From an uncultured Acidobacteriota bacterium (GTDB lineage Bacteria; Acidobacteriota; Terriglobia; Bryobacterales; Bryobacteraceae): a stretch of 64,000 bases of DNA. Location: assembly GCA_902826685.1 (NCBI GenBank), contig CADEFT010000007.1:62001-126000 (forward strand), written 5' to 3'. The stretch's first letter is position 1. Every line of letters begins with the position of its first letter. The translations under genes were made by a program, and so were the position numbers. The notes under the pieces are model-generated. The model did not search any database. It saw nothing but the letters and a program-made list of their open reading frames with translations, and was not told the origin of the DNA. Below, in pieces: positions 52,536 through 62,159 of the stretch.

Positions 52536-52581
52536 GTAGTCAAAACTTCATTGTATCGCGGCCGTGTTACTCTACCCGTTT

Positions 52582-53541
52582 ATGCCTGAATTCGACGTTG
52601 TGGGCATTGGCCTCAACGCTACGGACACCCTCATCCTGGTTCCGCACTTTCCTCCCTACGCCGGCAAGGTGGCCTTCGACGACGAGATGCTGAGTCCGGG
52701 AGGACAGGTGGCCTCGGCGATGGTCACCTGCGCGCGGCTCGGGCTGCGGGTGAAGTACATCGGAACCATCGGCGACGATGAGCGCGGGCGCGTTCAGGAC
52801 GCGAGCCTTCGCGGCCTGGGCATCAATCTGGACGACGTGCGGGTGCGCGCGGGCTCGCCCAACCAGACCGCCTACATCATCATCGACCGCACCACCGGCG
52901 AGCGCACCGTTTTCTGGAGCCGCCCGGAAAGCCTGCGCCTCACGCCCGAGGAGATCGAGCCCTCCATGATCGCCTCGGCGCGTCTGCTGCACATCGACGG
53001 GCACGATACCGAAGCGGTGGAGAAGGCTGCCCGCATCGCGCGCGAGCACGGCATCCCCGTCACCGTCGACGTCGACACCATCTATCCGGGATTTGAGCGC
53101 GTGCTGCCGCATGTCACGCACCTGGTCGCCAGTTCCGAATTCCCCATCGCCTGGACGAAGGAAAAGGACCCGTTGAAGGCGCTCGGCATTCTGCAGAAGG
53201 AGTACAACATTCCGGTGGCGGCGATGACGCTGGGCTCCTATGGTGCGCTGGCGCGAGTCGGCAGCGAAGTCTACTATTCGCCCGCTTTCGTGGTGAATTG
53301 CGTGGATACCACGGGCGCCGGAGACGTCTTCCACGGGGCCTTCTGCTATGCTGTGCTCGAAGGTATGCCCATGGGCGACGCGCTCGATTTCTCCAATGCC
53401 ATGGCCGCTTTGAACTGCCGCGCCCTGGGCGCGCGCGGCGGCATTGAGACCGCCAGAGACGCTTACGCACTCATGGAGCGCGCTGAGCGCCGGTCGGATG
53501 ACGGCTTCCGCAAAAAGGCGTCCGTGACGACGCACGCCTGA
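52582..53541 (+). CDS. PfkB-family carbohydrate kinase
   Basis: A 319-residue ribokinase-like protein with the N-terminal glycine motif (SPGGQVASAMVTCARLG, about residues 38-54) and the C-terminal signature DTTGAGDVFHGAF with the catalytic Asp. It phosphorylates a sugar or nucleoside; ribose, fructose and adenosine cannot be separated here. The ATG at 52582 follows an in-frame GTG at 52564; the former gives the typical FDVVGIGLNATDT start. It is followed by the rhomboid gene after 4 bases. Confidence 0.92.
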   Translation: MPEFDVVGIGLNATDTLILVPHFPPYAGKVAFDDEMLSPGGQVASAMVTCARLGLRVKYIGTIGDDERGRVQDASLRGLGINLDDVRVRAGSPNQTAYIIIDRTTGERTVFWSRPESLRLTPEEIEPSMIASARLLHIDGHDTEAVEKAARIAREHGIPVTVDVDTIYPGFERVLPHVTHLVASSEFPIAWTKEKDPLKALGILQKEYNIPVAAMTLGSYGALARVGSEVYYSPAFVVNCVDTTGAGDVFHGAFCYAVLEGMPMGDALDFSNAMAALNCRALGARGGIETARDAYALMERAERRSDDGFRKKASVTTHA

Positions 53542-53545
53542 CGCC

Positions 53546-54217
53546 ATGATTCCGCTTCGCGATACACAGCCGAGCTACGTCACACCAATCGTCACCATCG
53601 GATTGATTCTGGCCAATGTGGCGGCTTTCCTCTACGAGATCTCGCTCGACTCGTTTTCCCTCAACCATCTGCTGGCCGACCGCGGCATCGTCGCGGCCCG
53701 ATTTCAAACCGTCGACCTGTTCACATCCATGTTCCTGCACGGCGGCTGGATGCACCTGATCGGCAACATGTGGTTCCTGTGGATCTACGGCGACAACGTC
53801 GAAGATATCCTCGGCCACGGCCGCTACATCGTGTTCTATCTGCTGTGCGGCGTGGCCGCCGGAATGGTGCATATCCTGTTCAACGCCGGCTCGAAGATTC
53901 CCACCATCGGAGCGAGCGGCGCCATCGCCGGCGTCATGGGCGCCTACATGGCCAAGTTCCCGCATTCGAAAATTCTCACCGTCATTCCGTTCATCGTCTT
54001 CTTCACCACCGCCGAGATTCCGGCCGTGTTCATCCTGGCCTATTGGTTTATCATTCAGATCTTCAGCGGCGTGGGTGAGGTGGGCCATTCCTCGGCCTCC
54101 CAAGGCGCTGGCGTGGCGTGGTTTGCCCACGTCGGCGGCTTCGTGGCCGGCTATATTCTCATCCGCCTCATGCCCACTCACGATCGCTACCGCCACCGGC
54201 CGGATCTTAACTGGTAA
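53546..54217 (+). CDS. Rhomboid-family intramembrane serine protease
   Basis: A 223-residue protein with six membrane segments. The catalytic serine is in GASGAIAGVMGAY (about residues 125-137) and the catalytic His in AHVGGFVAGY near the C-terminus. The HGGWMHLIGNMWFLWIYG segment carries the conserved HxxxN oxyanion region. It cleaves membrane proteins within the bilayer. The neighbours pfkB and bshB1 (3-base gap) suggest one transcript but no common function. Confidence 0.93.
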   Translation: MIPLRDTQPSYVTPIVTIGLILANVAAFLYEISLDSFSLNHLLADRGIVAARFQTVDLFTSMFLHGGWMHLIGNMWFLWIYGDNVEDILGHGRYIVFYLLCGVAAGMVHILFNAGSKIPTIGASGAIAGVMGAYMAKFPHSKILTVIPFIVFFTTAEIPAVFILAYWFIIQIFSGVGEVGHSSASQGAGVAWFAHVGGFVAGYILIRLMPTHDRYRHRPDLNW

Positions 54218-54220
54218 CTC

Positions 54221-54958
54221 ATGCTCGATCTTGCCGACGATTTCAAACCGCTCGATATTCTTGCCATTGCCGCCCATCCCGACGATGTGGAACAAACCTG
54301 CGGCGGCACGTTGATCCGCATGGCCGAACAGGGCTACCGCACCGGCGTACTCGATCTGACGGCGGGGGAAATGGGTACGCGCGGCACACCGGCGCTGCGC
54401 ATCGAAGAATCGCAACACGCGGCAAAGCATATGCTGTGCGCCTGGCGCGGCAACCAGCGCTTCCCGGATGCGCGGCTGGATAATTCGCTGCCCGCCCGCA
54501 TGACACTGGCCGGTGAAATCCGCCGCCTGCGGCCGCGCGTGGTCATTCTGCCTTATTGGGAAGGCCGGCATCCGGATCATTACGTCGCGTCGAAGCTCGG
54601 TTACGAAAGCTGCTTTCTCGCCGGACTGGCCAAACTCGACGAAGGCGAATCCGTTCCGCACCGCCCGTTCAAGGTGATTTACGCGTCGCTCTACGCCAAC
54701 GTAACGCCGTCGTTTGTCGTGGACATCAGCGCGCAGTTCGAACGCCGCATGAAGGCGCTGCTCGCCTACCGCTCGCAGTACGGCGATCACGTGGAAGGCA
54801 GCGGTCTGTTCCCCAAAGAAGAAGAGATCCGCGAGCGCCTCGGCTCGGTCGCGCGATTCTATGGGAACCTCATCGGCGTCAAGTACGGCGAACCGTTTGT
54901 CGTCAAGGAAGCGATGCGCGTGGACGACATCGCGCAGATGGGCGTCCGGAGTTTCTAA
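54221..54958 (+). CDS. bshB1: Bacillithiol biosynthesis deacetylase BshB1-like (PIG-L family)
   Basis: A 245-residue zinc-dependent LmbE/PIG-L deacetylase. The metal motif is AHPDDVEQTCGGTL (residues 18-31) and the third ligand is in YWEGRHPDHYVASKLG (near 112). The GYESCFLAGL and LFPKEEEIRERLG regions match BshB1. It would deacetylate GlcNAc-malate to glucosaminyl-malate for bacillithiol. bshA and bshC are not in the window, so the pathway is inferred. It is followed by the deletion-scar region. Confidence 0.85.
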   Translation: MLDLADDFKPLDILAIAAHPDDVEQTCGGTLIRMAEQGYRTGVLDLTAGEMGTRGTPALRIEESQHAAKHMLCAWRGNQRFPDARLDNSLPARMTLAGEIRRLRPRVVILPYWEGRHPDHYVASKLGYESCFLAGLAKLDEGESVPHRPFKVIYASLYANVTPSFVVDISAQFERRMKALLAYRSQYGDHVEGSGLFPKEEEIRERLGSVARFYGNLIGVKYGEPFVVKEAMRVDDIAQMGVRSF

Positions 54959-55061
54959 CTACGCGAGCAACCGCTTGGCGAAATCGAACTCGCCGCCCAC
55001 GCCTGAAGCGAATCGGGAACGGCGATAGCGGCAATTGAGAGGTTACGAACGCGAGTTGCAT
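54903..55061 (-). pseudogene. Orphan gene start fused to a gene-end copy (deletion scar)
   Basis: The minus strand shows AAGGAG and an ATG at 55061, with the plausible N-terminus MQLAFVTSQLPLSPFP, which is like the first strand of a TIM-barrel or similar enzyme. After about 20 codons the frame enters, out of phase, the 43-base copy of the DUF1501 gene 3' end (54959-55001) and then the antisense of bshB1. Nothing supports a functional product. It looks like the two ends left after a deletion. It is not needed for any neighbour. Confidence 0.5.
54959..55001 (-). repeat. 43-base copy of the DUF1501 gene 3' end
   Basis: The stretch matches 60708-60750 at 42 of 43 positions and encodes VGGEFDFAKRLLA and the stop in the DUF1501 gene. 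Here the rest of the gene is missing. Confidence 0.9.
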
Positions 55062-55186
55062 CGTAGATTCTCCTTTCCGGTAAAGCGCGAATTTCTCCAA
55101 ACCGCCATTAGCAGTTTTGCGATTCGATAGCGCCTTACTGGCTGAACGCGGACGTAACGAACCGCGGTACAGAAGGAGAAACAACC

Positions 55187-56551
55187 ATGACTCGAATCCA
55201 TCGATTTTCGCTGGCGGTGCTGGCCGCCGGCTTGCTGAACACGGCCGCGGTGCAAGGACAGAACACCATGATTGAACCGGGCGCGGGCAACTGGAAGACG
55301 TTCGCGATCCCCTCCGGCAAAGACTATCGGGTGCCGCCACCGCCGGGCGAAGCGGAAAGCCGTGCCGAAATCGCCTGGCTCAAGGGCGTGACCGCGGAAA
55401 CCGATCCGCGGATCGCCGAGCAGGTTCAGTTCTGGGACGCCGGCGCGCCCGCCTACCGTTGGATTGACATGATGGTGAAACGCCAAACCGGCGGCCAGGC
55501 GATGACGCCCTTTCCGCATCGTGTGTTCACCTATGTGTCGATGGCGATGCATGACGCGACGGTGGCCGCCTGGGAATCGAAGTATTTCTATAACCGGCGC
55601 CGGCCGAGCGAAACCGATCCTTCGTTGAAGACGCGCGTGGCGGTGCCCGCCAGCCCGTCCTATCCTTCGGAGCATGCGGCTGCCGCGGGCGCCGCGGCGG
55701 CGGTGCTGGCAGCGATGCTGCCAGGCGAAGCGGCAGCCTTTGAAGGGCTGGCGGAAGAAGCGGCGCGCAGCCGGCTCTATGCGGGCGTGCAGTATCCCAG
55801 CGACTACTTTGCCGGTCTCGAACTCGGCCGGCACGTGGCGCAAAAGGTGATGGAACGCGCGCGGGCCGATGGTTCGGACGCAGTGTGGGCGGGCACCGTG
55901 CCATCGGGTCCGTGTATGTGGACGGGAACGAATCCGGGAAACGCGACCATGCCGAATTGGCGTCCGATCCTGCTGCGCTCGGGCAATGAGTTCCGTTCGG
56001 AGCCGCCACCCGATTGCCGCTCGGAAAGAATGCGTGCGGAATCGGACGCGGTGAAGAACTTTCCGCGCACGCTGCAAACGAACATGCGCGCCTTCTACTT
56101 CCATTCGCCTGAAGGAACGTTTACCGATTTCCACATGCTGTTGAGCCGGATGATGTTCGAGGACCATCTCGACCAGAATCCTCCGCGCTCGGCCAGGGCT
56201 TACGCGATGCTGGCGGGCGTGCTTTATGACACCTGGATCGCCAGTAACGATTCCAAGTACGCCTATTGGTATCTGCGCCCGCATCAGTTGGACTCGGGTA
56301 TCAACCCTCTGTTTCCGGCGCCGAACTTTCCTTCGTACCCGTCGAATCATTCCGCACTTTCGACGGCCCGCGCGGAGCTGCTGGGGTTCCTGTTCCCGGC
56401 CCGGAAGGACGCGATGACGGCGCTCGGCAAAGAGGCGGGCGATTCCCGGATCTGGGCCGGCATCCATTATGAAATGGACAATCAGGCGGGCGCGACCATG
56501 GGCCGGGCGGTGGCACGGAGGTTCATGGAATGGATGGATTCGGATCGATAA
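55187..56551 (+). CDS. PAP2/vanadium haloperoxidase-family protein with two PAP2-like cores
   Basis: A 454-residue exported protein with an AGGAG ribosome-binding site and a Sec signal (MTRIHRFSLAVLAAGLLNTA). Two consecutive halves each carry the superfamily motifs. The first has YNRRRP, SYPSEHAAAAGA and YAGVQYPSDY (Gln where a His is expected). The second has YLRPH, SYPSNHSALSTA and IWAGIHYEMD (His intact). The second half should bind phosphate or vanadate, while the first is probably degenerate. Such enzymes remove phosphate or oxidise halides. It is followed by an ECF sigma factor 54 bases downstream. Confidence 0.85.
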   Translation: MTRIHRFSLAVLAAGLLNTAAVQGQNTMIEPGAGNWKTFAIPSGKDYRVPPPPGEAESRAEIAWLKGVTAETDPRIAEQVQFWDAGAPAYRWIDMMVKRQTGGQAMTPFPHRVFTYVSMAMHDATVAAWESKYFYNRRRPSETDPSLKTRVAVPASPSYPSEHAAAAGAAAAVLAAMLPGEAAAFEGLAEEAARSRLYAGVQYPSDYFAGLELGRHVAQKVMERARADGSDAVWAGTVPSGPCMWTGTNPGNATMPNWRPILLRSGNEFRSEPPPDCRSERMRAESDAVKNFPRTLQTNMRAFYFHSPEGTFTDFHMLLSRMMFEDHLDQNPPRSARAYAMLAGVLYDTWIASNDSKYAYWYLRPHQLDSGINPLFPAPNFPSYPSNHSALSTARAELLGFLFPARKDAMTALGKEAGDSRIWAGIHYEMDNQAGATMGRAVARRFMEWMDSDR

Positions 56552-56605
56552 AGGAAACCGTGCCCGTGGTGAGCCAACCGGCGCCTGTCTCTCGCTATTC
56601 AGGGT

Positions 56606-57169
56606 ATGCAGGATACGACTCAACTGCTGGTCGCCTGGGGCAAAGGCGACCAGCAGGCTTTCGAATGCCTCACGCCGCGAGTGCAACAGGAACTACATCG
56701 GGTGGCGATGTACTATATGGCTGGAGAAAGGCGCGGACACATGCTGCAGGCGACCGCGCTGGTGAACGAAGCCTACATGAAGCTGATTGGCTGGAAGGGC
56801 GTCGAATGGACGGGCAAGCAGCATTTTTTCGGAGTGGCCGCTGGATTGATGCGGCGGGTGCTGGTGGATTACGCTCGATCGGGCGGACGGGCCAAGCGGG
56901 GTGCGAACACGGCGCGGGTGCCCCTTGCGGACGCTGGAGAGCTGGCTTTCCCGGCGGGCGCCGGCGTAGTGGCGGTGGATGACGCGATGAAAGACCTGGA
57001 GCGGCTGGCGCCGCGGCAAAGCAAGATCGTTGAGCTGCGTTACTTCGGCGGGTTGAGCCTGGAAGAGATCGCCGCCGCGATCGAAGTTTCGGTGGCCACC
57101 GTGCGGCGCGACTTCAGCATCGCCAAGGCCTGGTTGTTCCGTGAGCTCAGCCGGAAATCGATGGTATGA
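56606..57169 (+). CDS. ECF sigma factor (acidobacterial/planctomycete type)
   Basis: A 187-residue sigma factor with the pattern of the ECF group typical of acidobacteria and planctomycetes: LLVAWGKGDQQAFECLTPRV, then RRGHMLQATALVNEAYMKLI, KQHFFGVAAGLMRRVLVDYAR and LEEIAAAIEVSVATVRRDFS. These factors lie next to large Ser/Thr kinases, as here: its stop overlaps the kinase start (ATGA), so the two are translationally coupled. The kinase may regulate the factor by phosphorylation, as proposed for related pairs. Confidence 0.92.
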   Translation: MQDTTQLLVAWGKGDQQAFECLTPRVQQELHRVAMYYMAGERRGHMLQATALVNEAYMKLIGWKGVEWTGKQHFFGVAAGLMRRVLVDYARSGGRAKRGANTARVPLADAGELAFPAGAGVVAVDDAMKDLERLAPRQSKIVELRYFGGLSLEEIAAAIEVSVATVRRDFSIAKAWLFRELSRKSMV

Positions 57170-60100
57170 CACCGGAGCGCTACCAGCAGGTTGCCGATAT
57201 CTTTCACGCCGCCAGCGGGCTGGAGCAGGCCAGACGCAAGAGCTTTCTCGCCAGTGCGTGCGGCGCGGATGCGGAGCTGTTGCGGGAAGTAGAATCGCTG
57301 CTGGAAGCGGGCGGGCAGGCCGGGGATTTCATGGCATCGGGCTTGGAAACGAAGGTCTCCATGGATCTACGTCTGCCGGCCGGACGCCACATCGGACACT
57401 ACCGGATTGAGTCGTTTCTCGGCGCCGGCGGAATGGGGCAGGTGTACCTGGCGACGGATGTGCGATTGGGGCGCAAGGTAGCTCTGAAGATTCTGCCGGC
57501 GTCGGGCGAAAACGAGCAACGCCTGGAACGGTTCGAGGCCGAAGCCAGGGCCGCATCGGCGCTGAACCATCCCAACATCGTGACCATTTACGACGTGGGC
57601 CGCGACGAGGACGGTAAATTCCTGGTGATGGAGCATGTGGCGGGCCGGACGCTGCGCGACCTGCTGGAGAACGCTCCGATGCCCGAAGCCATTCCGCAAG
57701 TAGGGCTGCAACTGGCGCGAGCCTTGCGCGCAGCGCATGCCGGAGGCATTACGCATCGCGACATCAAGCCGGAAAACATCATGGTCCGCGAGGATGGTTT
57801 CGTGAAGGTGCTCGATTTCGGGCTGGCAAGGTTGATGAGCGCGGGTAACGATGTGACCAACGAAAGCGCGAACGGGGGCCGCATGGGCACGGTGCGCTAC
57901 ATGTCGCCGGAGCAGGCCGGAGGTGGCCATGTGGATCCTCCATCGGATGTGTTTTCGCTAGGCATCGTGTTTTATGAGATGGCCACGGGACGGCACCCTT
58001 TTCCAGCCCACTCCACCCTTGGAAGCTTCCACGCGGTGATGGTTTCGGCGCCGCCCCGCCCGTCTGCCATCCAAGCTTCGCTGCGGCCGGGCGTGGAGAG
58101 ACTGATTCTGGCGATGCTGAAAAAAGATCCCACCCGGCGGCCCACCAGCGCGCAGGTGGAAGCGGCGCTGGAAGCCGAAGCGGGACTGTCCCCGGCGGCC
58201 CACAACCTTCCCGTTCAACGAACGCCATTCGTGGGACGCGAGGAAGAACTGTTCCTGCTTGACTCGATGCTGCGGGACCCGGAGGGCCCGCGGCTGGTGA
58301 CGTTGACGGGACCGGGCGGCACGGGTAAGACGCGGCTGGCGCTGCGGGCGGCCGAAAACGCGATGGACGCCTTCATGGGCGGGGTCTACTTCGCGGATCT
58401 GGCGCCTCTTACCGAGCCGCGCCAGGTGGCTTCGGCCATCGCGATGAGCGTGGGCGTGCGCGAGACGGCGGACTTGGAACTTTGCGCGGCCATCGCTCAA
58501 CGGCTGGATTCTGCTGGCCCGGTGCTGTTGGTGCTGGACAATTTCGAACACCTGATGGAAGCCGCATCGGGAATCGCGCGGCTGTTCGAGCGGTGCGCGA
58601 CGGTGAAGATTCTCGCCACCAGCCGCCTGCCCCTTCACCTGTATGGCGAGCAGGAATTTCCCGTGCCGCCGCTGCCTCTGCCCGCCGAAGACGGCTCCGG
58701 CCGGGCGATGGATTTCGCTTCCATCGAGCTGTTCGTGCAGCGCGCCGCGGCGGTGAGGCCAGGCTTTGCCTTGACGGCGGAAAACACCGCCGCCGTTGCC
58801 GAGATCTGCCGCCGCCTGGATGGGTTGCCTCTGGCCATCGAACTGGCGGCCGCGCGCACGAAAGTCTTGCCTCCACGGGCGCTGCTGGCGCGCATCGAAA
58901 ACCGGCTGGAGTTGTTGACCGGAGGCAGCCGCGATCTGCCCGAGCGGCACCAGGCGTTGCGGCGCACCATCGGCTGGAGCTACGAACTGCTGACGCCCGC
59001 CGAGCGCAAGCTCTTCACGCGCCTCGCGGTTTTCGTTGGTGGCTGTACGCTCGAAGCGGCCGAGGCGGTGTGCAACACCCGCGAAGACCTGGAAGTCGAT
59101 ATTACCGAGGGCATTTCGTCGCTGGTGGACAAGAGCCTGATCCGGCAGGGCGCCGAGGAGCCGGGCGAGCCTCGTTTTTCGATGCTGGAGACAATCCGCG
59201 ACTACGCCCGCGAACGCCTTGCCTCAAGCGGCGACATGCCCGAGACCGAACGCGCGCATGCGGCCTACTACCTGGTGCTTTCCGAGGAACTGGCCGGTTC
59301 GGGTCCGGCGCAGCAGGAAGCGCTGGCTTTTTACCAACGCGAGTATGGCAATGTGCGAATGGCGATCCGCCACCTGATCGCAAGCGGCAACGGCGAATGG
59401 GCTTTGCGTTTGGGTGGCGCACAGCTTTGGTTCTGGGAACAGGTGGAATACTTCGGCGAAGGGCGTGAGTTGCTGGAAGCCATTCTGCGCATGCCTTCGG
59501 CGCAGGCGCCCACCGCCTTGCGGGCTCGCGTCGCTTATTTGCAAGGGACGTTGTGTTACCGCCTGGGCGATTACAGCCAGGCGCTGCGGCTTCAGGAGGA
59601 TGAGGCGCTCGCCATTTTCCGCCAGCTCGGCGACCGGCGCGGTATGGCGTCCGCCTTGATCGGAGTCGCTACGATCAAGCATGCGCTCAAGCGGAGCGGC
59701 GAGGCCATGTCCCTGCTTCGCCAAGCGGAGCGGATGTGGCGCGAGCAGGGCGACGACTCGGCGGCGGATTATTGTCTTCATAACCTGGCGCGCATCGCCG
59801 CCGCGCGGGGAGAATACGCCACGGCGCGCGGCTTGCTGGAAACCATCGCCGTCCAATTCGAACGGAGGGGCGACCGGCGCGGCGCCGCCTCAGCCTTTTG
59901 CAGCCTGGGCGACCTGGCGGAACAGGAGGGCGACATTGAGGGGGCGCGCGCGCATCAGCTGGATGGACTGCGCCAGTTCGAAGCATTGGGTGACGTGTCG
60001 GGCAGTGCGCGGGTTTTGGCCGATCTGGGAGACCTCGCCCGCCGCGCCCATAATTATGGCGAAGCGGAAGGCTTTTACCGCGATTCGCTGCGCGAGGCGA

Positions 60101-60384
60101 AGGAAGCGGCCCGCCGCACGCAGATCGCACGAGCCCTGGTGGAACTCGCCGGATGCTCACTGCTGCGGGACCGGCCGGAACGCGCCCTCACCCTGGCGAC
60201 GGCGGCCGCGAGCATGTTGCGCGCCGTGGCTTCCTCAAGCGTGGATCCGCTCCGGCAGACGGCTTCTGAAACCAGGAGCGCGGCGCGATCGTCGCTCGAT
60301 CAGGCGGCGGCAGGCAGCGCCGAGACCCTTGGGCGCAGCTTCACTCTGGAACAGGCGATCGAATACGCGCTGCGGCAGGACTAG
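57166..60384 (+). CDS. Ser/Thr kinase fused to an NTPase (AfsR-like) and TPR domain
   Basis: A 1072-residue protein. The N-terminal leader (TPERYQQVADIFHAASGLEQ) is typical of acidobacterial kinases. The kinase (about residues 82-345) has GAGGMGQVY, VALKIL, HRDIKPEN, DFGLARL and RYMSPEQAG. A STAND-type NTPase follows (about 350-640; P-loop LTGPGGTGKTRLAL, then LLVLDNFEHL and LATSRLPL), then a winged-helix-like region and TPR-like repeats to about 1040. No membrane helix is seen, so it is probably cytoplasmic. This layout suggests a signal-dependent switch in which NTP binding and TPR contacts control the kinase. It overlaps the sigma gene by 4 bases and the convergent DUF4242 gene by 4. Confidence 0.88.
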   Translation: MTPERYQQVADIFHAASGLEQARRKSFLASACGADAELLREVESLLEAGGQAGDFMASGLETKVSMDLRLPAGRHIGHYRIESFLGAGGMGQVYLATDVRLGRKVALKILPASGENEQRLERFEAEARAASALNHPNIVTIYDVGRDEDGKFLVMEHVAGRTLRDLLENAPMPEAIPQVGLQLARALRAAHAGGITHRDIKPENIMVREDGFVKVLDFGLARLMSAGNDVTNESANGGRMGTVRYMSPEQAGGGHVDPPSDVFSLGIVFYEMATGRHPFPAHSTLGSFHAVMVSAPPRPSAIQASLRPGVERLILAMLKKDPTRRPTSAQVEAALEAEAGLSPAAHNLPVQRTPFVGREEELFLLDSMLRDPEGPRLVTLTGPGGTGKTRLALRAAENAMDAFMGGVYFADLAPLTEPRQVASAIAMSVGVRETADLELCAAIAQRLDSAGPVLLVLDNFEHLMEAASGIARLFERCATVKILATSRLPLHLYGEQEFPVPPLPLPAEDGSGRAMDFASIELFVQRAAAVRPGFALTAENTAAVAEICRRLDGLPLAIELAAARTKVLPPRALLARIENRLELLTGGSRDLPERHQALRRTIGWSYELLTPAERKLFTRLAVFVGGCTLEAAEAVCNTREDLEVDITEGISSLVDKSLIRQGAEEPGEPRFSMLETIRDYARERLASSGDMPETERAHAAYYLVLSEELAGSGPAQQEALAFYQREYGNVRMAIRHLIASGNGEWALRLGGAQLWFWEQVEYFGEGRELLEAILRMPSAQAPTALRARVAYLQGTLCYRLGDYSQALRLQEDEALAIFRQLGDRRGMASALIGVATIKHALKRSGEAMSLLRQAERMWREQGDDSAADYCLHNLARIAAARGEYATARGLLETIAVQFERRGDRRGAASAFCSLGDLAEQEGDIEGARAHQLDGLRQFEALGDVSGSARVLADLGDLARRAHNYGEAEGFYRDSLREAKEAARRTQIARALVELAGCSLLRDRPERALTLATAAASMLRAVASSSVDPLRQTASETRSAARSSLDQAAAGSAETLGRSFTLEQAIEYALRQD

Positions 60385-60653
60385 GCGTAGCGTGCCGGAT
60401 CGATCATGCGGCGGACGGCGGAAATTCGATTGGCGGGAACACCCAACTGGCGGGCATGTTCCCGGATGATGCCTTCATCCGGAGCCAGATAGACGCAAAA
60501 CAGCTTGTTGTCGGTGACGTAGCTGTGCAGCCACTGAATCTCACCACCGAGCGAGCGGATGACTTCGAGCGACTTCAGCGATGCCGAGCGGACTTGATCT
60601 TCGGTCCAAGCGCCCGCGCCGGGGATCTCGCGCTCGATTACGTACTCCGGCAT
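60381..60653 (-). CDS. DUF4242-domain protein
   Basis: A 90-residue small ferredoxin-like-fold protein of the DUF4242 family: YVIEREIPGAGAWTEDQVRS, IQWLHSYVTDNKLFCVYLAP and ANRISAVRRMIDPARYA. Members bind metals or act as small monooxygenase-like proteins; the family has little experimental work behind it. It converges on the kinase gene and lies upstream of nothing else on its strand within 50 bases. Confidence 0.87.
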   Translation of the reverse strand: MPEYVIEREIPGAGAWTEDQVRSASLKSLEVIRSLGGEIQWLHSYVTDNKLFCVYLAPDEGIIREHARQLGVPANRISAVRRMIDPARYA

Positions 60654-60707
60654 AGGCGCAGAATATCACAGGAGCGAGTGGCTGCTGTGCCTCTCGTTTC
60701 CTATCCG

Positions 60708-60750
60708 CTACGCGAGCAACCGCTTGGCGAAATCGAACTCACCGCCCACG
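60708..60750 (-). repeat. 3' end of the DUF1501 gene, source of the copy at 54959
   Basis: The last 43 bases of the DUF1501 gene, including its stop, recur at 54959-55001 with one mismatch. Confidence 0.9.
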
Positions 60751-62159
60751 TCGGTCAACCGGAAATCCCGCCCCTGGAAAAAATACGTGAGCTTCTTGTG
60801 CTCAAGCCCGATCAGGCTCAGCAGCGTGGCGTGCAGGTCGTGCATCGACACCCGGTCTTCGGCCGCCTTCAAACCGATCGCGTCCGTGGACCCGATCGCC
60901 TTGCCGCCCTTGATGCCGCCTCCGGCCATCCACACCGAAAAGCCGTAAGGGTTGTGATCCCGTCCGTTGTGATTGCCCGTGCCGCCTTCGGCGCCGTCGG
61001 TGAACGGAGTCCGTCCGAAATCGCCGCCCCAAACAACGACCGTGCTATCGAGCAGACCGTGCGCCTTCAGATCGGCGAGCAGCCCGGCGATCGGTTTGTC
61101 CACCTTGTTCGCCATGAACGTATGGTTACGGTCGCATTCGTTGTGCGCGTCCCAGCCGACCTCGGCGCCCTTCTTGCCGCCTGAGTAGAGCTGCACGAAC
61201 CGCACGCCGCGCTCCACCAGCCGCCGCGCCATCAGACACATCGATCCGAATTCGGAGGTGTCCTTTTCATCCATGCCATAAAGCTTCCTGGTCGCCTCGG
61301 ATTCCTTACTCAGATCCGCGACGTCCGGTACCGACATCTGCATCTTGAACGCCAGTTCATACGAAGCGATACGCGCCGCCAGTTCCGTATCCTCGGCGCG
61401 CGAAGCGCGATGCCCCTCGTTGTAGTCGCGCAACAGGTCGAGCATCCGCCGCTGCTCTTCCACCGTCGTGCCTTGCGGCGGATGGACGTTCAGAATCGGC
61501 GGCCCTTCGCTGCGCAGCACCGTGCCCTGATACATGGCCGGCAGAAATCCCGAACCATACGCCGGCGACCCGGCCTTGATGCCGCCATCGAGCATCACCA
61601 CATAAGCCGGCAAATTCTCCGACTCGCTTCCCAATCCATACGTCACCCAACTGCCGATACTCGGACGGCCCACGCGCGCCCACCCGGTATTCATCCACGT
61701 CTGCCCCGTCACGTGCGTGAACCCGTCGTGATAGCAGGAGCGAACCACGGCCAGATCGTCGGCATGCCGCGCGACATTCTCAAACAGGTCCGATATCTCC
61801 AGCCCCGATTGACCGCGCCTCCGGAAGGTACGCCGAGACGCCATCAACGGCACCTTCTCCATCCGCGTGAATTGAAAATCCACTTTGCCGAAACTCTCAG
61901 GCACCGGCTGGCCGTCGAGCTTCGCCAACTCGGGCTTGGGATCGAAGCTGTCGATGTGGCTCGGACCGCCGTGCATGAACAGGAAGATCACCGCCTTGCC
62001 CTTGGCGGCAAAATGCGGTGGCCGCGCCGCCATCGCGTTGCGCGCCGCCTGTGCGTCGCGGCCCAGGAGAAAAGAGGCGGCCAGCGATCCAAACCCGAGC
62101 CCGGAACGTTCCAGGAACTGGCGGCGGGAAGCGGCTTCGAATGTTTTTCGGCAAAGCAT
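60708..62159 (-). CDS. DUF1501-domain protein with twin-arginine signal
   Basis: A 483-residue protein with a Tat signal (SRRQFLERSGLGFGSLAASF) and the sulfatase-like fold of the DUF1501 family: IFLFMHGGPSHIDSFDPKPE near residue 57, VVWGGDFGRTPF and LTYFFQGRDFRLTDVGG at the end. The family occurs in planctomycetes, acidobacteria and Verrucomicrobia, nearly always beside a DUF1549/DUF1553 gene, and is thought to be periplasmic; its reaction is unknown. It starts 4 bases after the stop of that partner. Confidence 0.93.
   Translation of the reverse strand: MLCRKTFEAASRRQFLERSGLGFGSLAASFLLGRDAQAARNAMAARPPHFAAKGKAVIFLFMHGGPSHIDSFDPKPELAKLDGQPVPESFGKVDFQFTRMEKVPLMASRRTFRRRGQSGLEISDLFENVARHADDLAVVRSCYHDGFTHVTGQTWMNTGWARVGRPSIGSWVTYGLGSESENLPAYVVMLDGGIKAGSPAYGSGFLPAMYQGTVLRSEGPPILNVHPPQGTTVEEQRRMLDLLRDYNEGHRASRAEDTELAARIASYELAFKMQMSVPDVADLSKESEATRKLYGMDEKDTSEFGSMCLMARRLVERGVRFVQLYSGGKKGAEVGWDAHNECDRNHTFMANKVDKPIAGLLADLKAHGLLDSTVVVWGGDFGRTPFTDGAEGGTGNHNGRDHNPYGFSVWMAGGGIKGGKAIGSTDAIGLKAAEDRVSMHDLHATLLSLIGLEHKKLTYFFQGRDFRLTDVGGEFDFAKRLLA

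Follow-up and report, generated by a model that had tools for sequence, protein, structure and literature searches.

A 43-base direct repeat of a DUF1501 gene end brackets a four-gene segment beside bshB1 in an uncultured Acidobacteriota bacterium

The locus lies in a draft genome of 7.42 Mb in 83 contigs, with an estimated contamination of 3.29%. The window is the whole 64,000-nucleotide stretch of contig C7 that was analysed. On its plus strand, bshB1, coding for a bacillithiol biosynthesis deacetylase (54221-54958; NCBIfam TIGR04001, above the cut-off), is intact to its stop codon. It is followed by a displaced copy of the 3′ end of a DUF1501 gene, stop codon included (54959-55001, minus strand; copy 1), and by an orphan gene start on the same strand (55002-55061), recognized from the sequence and a motif count as a good ribosome-binding site AAGGAG, an ATG and 20 codons. 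Four genes come next. The first encodes a PAP2-superfamily phosphatase (55187-56551, plus strand; PF01569), whose best relatives are 52-58% identical and whose N-terminus, judged by eye, looks like a signal peptide. The second encodes an ECF sigma factor of the Sig-70_X6 subfamily (56606-57169, plus strand; PF07638, TIGR02999) and the third a Ser/Thr protein kinase with AAA and TPR regions (57166-60384, plus strand; PF00069, PF13401, PF13424). The fourth gene, for an SCO4226-like small protein that we take to be DUF4242 (60381-60653, minus strand; PF14026), is convergent with the kinase gene and overlaps it by four bases. No recombinase was found among these four genes. The intact DUF1501 gene is then read on the minus strand (60708-62159; PF07394, E 5.7e-148), and its native 3′ end, identified by comparison with homologues, constitutes copy 2 (60708-60750). 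Upstream of it, its PSD1/DUF1553 partner extends from 62164 to about 64605 (PF07587, PF07583). The segment bracketed by the two copies (55002-60707), defined by the repeat coordinates and by its gene content, is hereafter called X.

The sequence comparison bears out the copy of the DUF1501 3′ end that the preliminary description had reported 5.7 kb from the gene. Copies 1 and 2 are identical at 42 of 43 bases and have the same orientation, forming a direct repeat with a start-to-start spacing of 5749 bases. The single mismatch (54992/60741) exchanges GGC for GGT and leaves the encoded DUF1501 residue unchanged. Without interruption, the two copies agree over at most 33 bases. Copy 1 has a sharp edge, starting at the first base past the TAA codon of bshB1 (54956-54958). 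In the DUF1501 sense, this edge of the repeat is the last base of the TAG codon. Copy 2 is an intact DUF1501 end with its stop codon, and copy 1 is the same save one silent base. The sequences flanking the two copies are unrelated on either side.

In a search of the own genome with positions 54880-55080, the second copy was retrieved with an E-value of 6e-14, and the next match (33 nt, 85% identity) had an E-value of 0.06. These values show that the repeat is neither a chance match nor a dispersed repeat. With 40 of the 71 first-look candidates scored, the draft genome yielded no third copy. The presence of the same 43 bases at many sites, proposed earlier as a sign of a mobile or structural element, thus turned out negative, and REP or MITE sequences are ruled out by the presence of two copies only. 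The search was extended to 237 genomes of the family, including the own one, with three candidates scored per genome. Four of the 236 others gave weak matches (24-44 nt, 86-96%) to parts of 54940-55200, which we read as chance; two of these, in genomes G014 and G002, sit within long open frames unrelated to the bshB1-DUF1501 locus. Spaced direct repeats of this kind are scarce in comparable DNA: only one other (33-120 bases, at least 93% identity) was detected in 1.24 Mb of sequence from 80 loci of relatives. On the own contig, 144 kb contained a single further repeat above the length and identity cut-offs, a near-tandem 80-base pair, 94% identical, lying outside the window at 121270-121449 on the window scale. 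Further identities were tried and rejected. A phage attachment site was discarded, as a search of viral contigs with the 33-base exact stretch gave no match. For a structured RNA or a terminator, DNA fold z-scores ranged from -0.42 to 0.05, positions 54700-55400 gave no Rfam match at E≤1, and no terminator pattern was present within 54850-55250.

With a draft of 83 contigs and a few percent of estimated contamination, one has to consider that assembly or binning made a wrong join at a repeat. However, an exact run of 33 bases, in copies that differ by one base, would be short for such a join, the pfkB-rhomboid-bshB1 run is syntenic in same-genus relatives, and neither G+C content nor third-position GC shifts at the two joins. 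We therefore regard an artefact as very unlikely.

Counting both strands of the 64-kb window, AAGGAG precedes an ATG by 4-15 nt in just five places, among them the PAP2 start. Because of this rarity, the ATG at 55061 is a credible former gene start. As described previously, the ribosome-binding site and the ATG are present, and the stretch of about 20 codons is exactly 20 codons long (55061-55002). The frame then enters copy 1 out of the DUF1501 frame and reaches a stop at 54903. The 20-residue peptide has no convincing homologue in the 237 family genomes, the best foreign match having an E-value of 0.14, and no Pfam match. We also considered the orphan frame as a gene spanning the junction of a circle. 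In a modelled circle it stays open for 89 codons, through the copy and into the other border. This was set aside as uninformative since 48% of random frames drawn here are open for at least 50 codons.

A gene tail that abuts a gene start broken off after 20 codons has the look of a deletion scar or gene remnant. The preliminary description proposed that a DUF1501 paralogue and a second gene had stood between bshB1 and PAP2 and had been almost wholly lost. DUF1501 paralogues are indeed numerous, with at least 26 matches in the own genome (26 scored). That the site is a rearrangement scar holds. The loss of two genes, on the other hand, is unlikely in our view: it requires a DUF1501 duplication followed by a deletion, the orphan peptide lacks a convincing homologue, and the copied tail is a near-perfect match to the neighbouring intact gene, with which it forms a bracket, rather than to a diverged paralogue. 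The bracket around four genes had been overlooked, and it is equally explained by one insertion at the DUF1501 3′ end.

The specificity of the tail also bears on the age of the event. The last ten or so codons of the DUF1501 gene in the window differ from those of all 12 homologues compared (11 from other genomes and one own paralogue). Because the tails of the homologues differ while copy 1 matches the window's own version, the copying, as judged from these alignments, most likely postdates the split from the sampled relatives. The event can be called recent in this sense, as had been suggested. One difference per 43 bases makes a finer dating of copy 1 impossible.

We then examined the genomic context of bshB1 in relatives, using 30 + 42 loci (L111-L148 and the DUF1501 loci were left out). 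Among named relatives of bshB1, the best carry the labels Bryobacterales, Bryobacteraceae or Acidobacteria. Relatives at 77-84% identity are present in 10 of 11 same-genus genomes, and they share the length and the C-terminus of the window's protein. The pfkB-rhomboid-bshB1 run (52564-54958) is conserved in the same-genus loci and in most other loci compared. The DNA 3′ of bshB1 varies among most relatives, L071 and L074 being alike and L070 and L073 more loosely so. In ten relatives, the sequence past bshB1 is unrelated to that of the window, and a search of 144 kb of the window's contig with their open reading frames downstream of bshB1 gave only distant matches (at most 45%), including one between L075 and the kinase domain of the window's kinase. 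Within the flank examined, a DUF1501 match past bshB1 was found in none of these ten. The comparison of the bshB1 to PAP2 interval suggested in the preliminary description, which expected a relative with one or two full genes, the last ending like DUF1501, therefore did not bring one to light; as the ten are all other species, this counts only weakly against a deletion.

On the other side of the interval, the PSD1/DUF1553-DUF1501 pair is present in all 11 loci from other genomes and in one own paralogous locus. The neighbours of the pair in other genomes do not match the neighbours found here, and bshB1 was absent from the stretches around the 11 homologues. In the literature searched, we found no paper naming both DUF1501 and DUF1553. 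Same-genus relatives, with about 80% identity in bshB1, are non-syntenic over the bshB1-DUF1501 interval. An empty site, with bshB1 joined to DUF1501 without X, was not found in the loci compared, which all come from other species.

The distribution of the X genes was investigated at 20 other loci carrying a kinase homologue, of which 19 belong to the family and one to the order. Fifteen of them have a DUF4242 gene downstream of the kinase homologue and convergent with it, although in five of these (L217, L219-L222) the match to the kinase is confined to its C-terminal AAA/TPR part. The remaining five showed no DUF4242 gene in the stretch examined; at two of them the contig breaks off within the kinase gene. 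The recurrence of the convergent pair in other genera suggests a functional link. An ECF match is present at nine of the 20 loci and PAP2 at none. The three genes ECF, kinase and DUF4242 are arranged as in the window at L207 only, so X is not a fixed unit already known. In the genus as sampled, the X genes have no close homologues. No kinase match at E 1e-150 was obtained in the 11 same-genus genomes (up to 12 candidates scored per genome), DUF4242 was found in one (49% identity, G010), and PAP2 in four (52-55% in three, 39% in the fourth). More distant ECF or kinase genes (35-46%) occur near the pfkB-bshB1 run in L070, L071, L073 and L075. The composition of X is not clearly atypical, 12% of 277 like-sized windows deviating as much or more. 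A comparable repeat flanking kinase-DUF4242 genes was not found at 11 loci representing 10 places, the best candidate being 23 nt long at 91% (E 0.001); a twelfth locus had too little flank and was left out.

We tentatively favour insertion as the simplest single event giving the whole pattern. On this reading, whose probability we put somewhat below even, the 5.7-kb segment X entered the DUF1501 gene at its 3′ end and the two copies are its direct-repeat borders. Until then, bshB1 and DUF1501 would have faced each other as convergent genes with touching stop codons. After the insertion, the DUF1501 end would be intact at 60708-60750 and displaced at 54959-55001, beside bshB1. The orphan start (55002-55061) would then be the cut edge of a gene borne at the left end of X. 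As for the route, the insertion may have been site-specific, with an enzyme acting in trans or since lost, or may have used recombination via short homology. The occurrence of the insertion, its direction and its route are what we infer from the direct orientation of the repeat, from the gene 3′ end completed by one copy exactly at the stop codon, and from the lack of a third genomic copy. The recurrence of kinase-DUF4242 elsewhere and the scarcity of the X genes in a sampled genus where bshB1 is nearly constant argue in the same direction. Against insertion, no base could have separated the two convergent genes, X has no recombinase, neither an empty site nor DUF1501 directly past bshB1 was found in the loci compared, the composition of X is not clearly atypical, the kinase-DUF4242 pair shows no comparable repeat at the loci tested elsewhere, and some relatives carry more distant ECF or kinase genes near pfkB-bshB1. 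Moreover, a patchy spread is not special to X: DUF1501 relatives at 75% identity or more are present in just two of the 11 same-genus genomes (78% and 75%; another genus has one at 77%), and a control gene outside X, to the right of PSD1, was found in four of 11, in three at 73-75% over partial length. The spread of this outside gene speaks against taking patchiness for a proof of a foreign origin of X.

The main rival to insertion is a short templated copy. The 43 bases of the DUF1501 tail would have served as filler during repair or replication at a break between bshB1 and PAP2, where the body of the orphan gene was lost and X was already present. One such event yields both edges of copy 1, works without a recombinase and takes its template from a donor merely 5.7 kb distant; since genes outside X are also patchy in the genus, X need not be new. 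However, the edges on one side fall exactly at the ends of the stop codons of both DUF1501 and bshB1, and no further templated piece accounts for 55002-55186 in the surrounding 144 kb. There, a patchwork of templated pieces was rejected, the best hit reaching 28.2 bits when 30 shuffled queries gave 22.3-34.2. We consider a templated copy a serious possibility, though on balance a doubtful one. The available relatives are all other species, with other DNA past bshB1 and around DUF1501.

X can be compared with genomic islands that have entered a protein-coding gene at its 3′ end, such as PAISt at bacA (PMC4057263). Like X, such islands lie between direct repeats, one of which coincides with a gene 3′ end. 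X differs in having no recombinase and in its 43-base repeat, as compared to the 8-base palindrome of PAISt. Because no recombinase is present, we do not file X as an integrase-type genomic island or IME. X also resembles the small variable segments studied in three bacterial species, 10-18% of which are flanked by direct repeats, most (66-94%) shorter than 30 bases (PMC2884548). In both cases, a variable segment past a conserved gene is bracketed by short direct repeats and holds no known mobile element. That variation was observed among strains, whereas X is known here from one genome and has a repeat of 43 bases. X as a recombinase-less mobile islet, carrying a kinase-DUF4242 signalling pair and using DUF1501 3′ ends as attachment site with an enzyme supplied in trans, is very unlikely; if it were true, the many DUF1501 genes of these genomes, this one included, would form a large pool of landing sites.

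The feature is an ordinary kind of rearrangement trace. If an insertion is confirmed, the repeat marks the limits of an arriving four-gene, kinase-bearing segment in one Acidobacteria species; if not, it reflects an ordinary local rearrangement. More generally, a short repeat can be read as the scar of a loss until its second copy reveals a bracket.

The control gene to the right of PSD1 is contained in a 490-residue frame (L168:90-1559) for a xylose-isomerase-like TIM barrel. Its true start is probably further in, since relatives match from residue 110 or later only.
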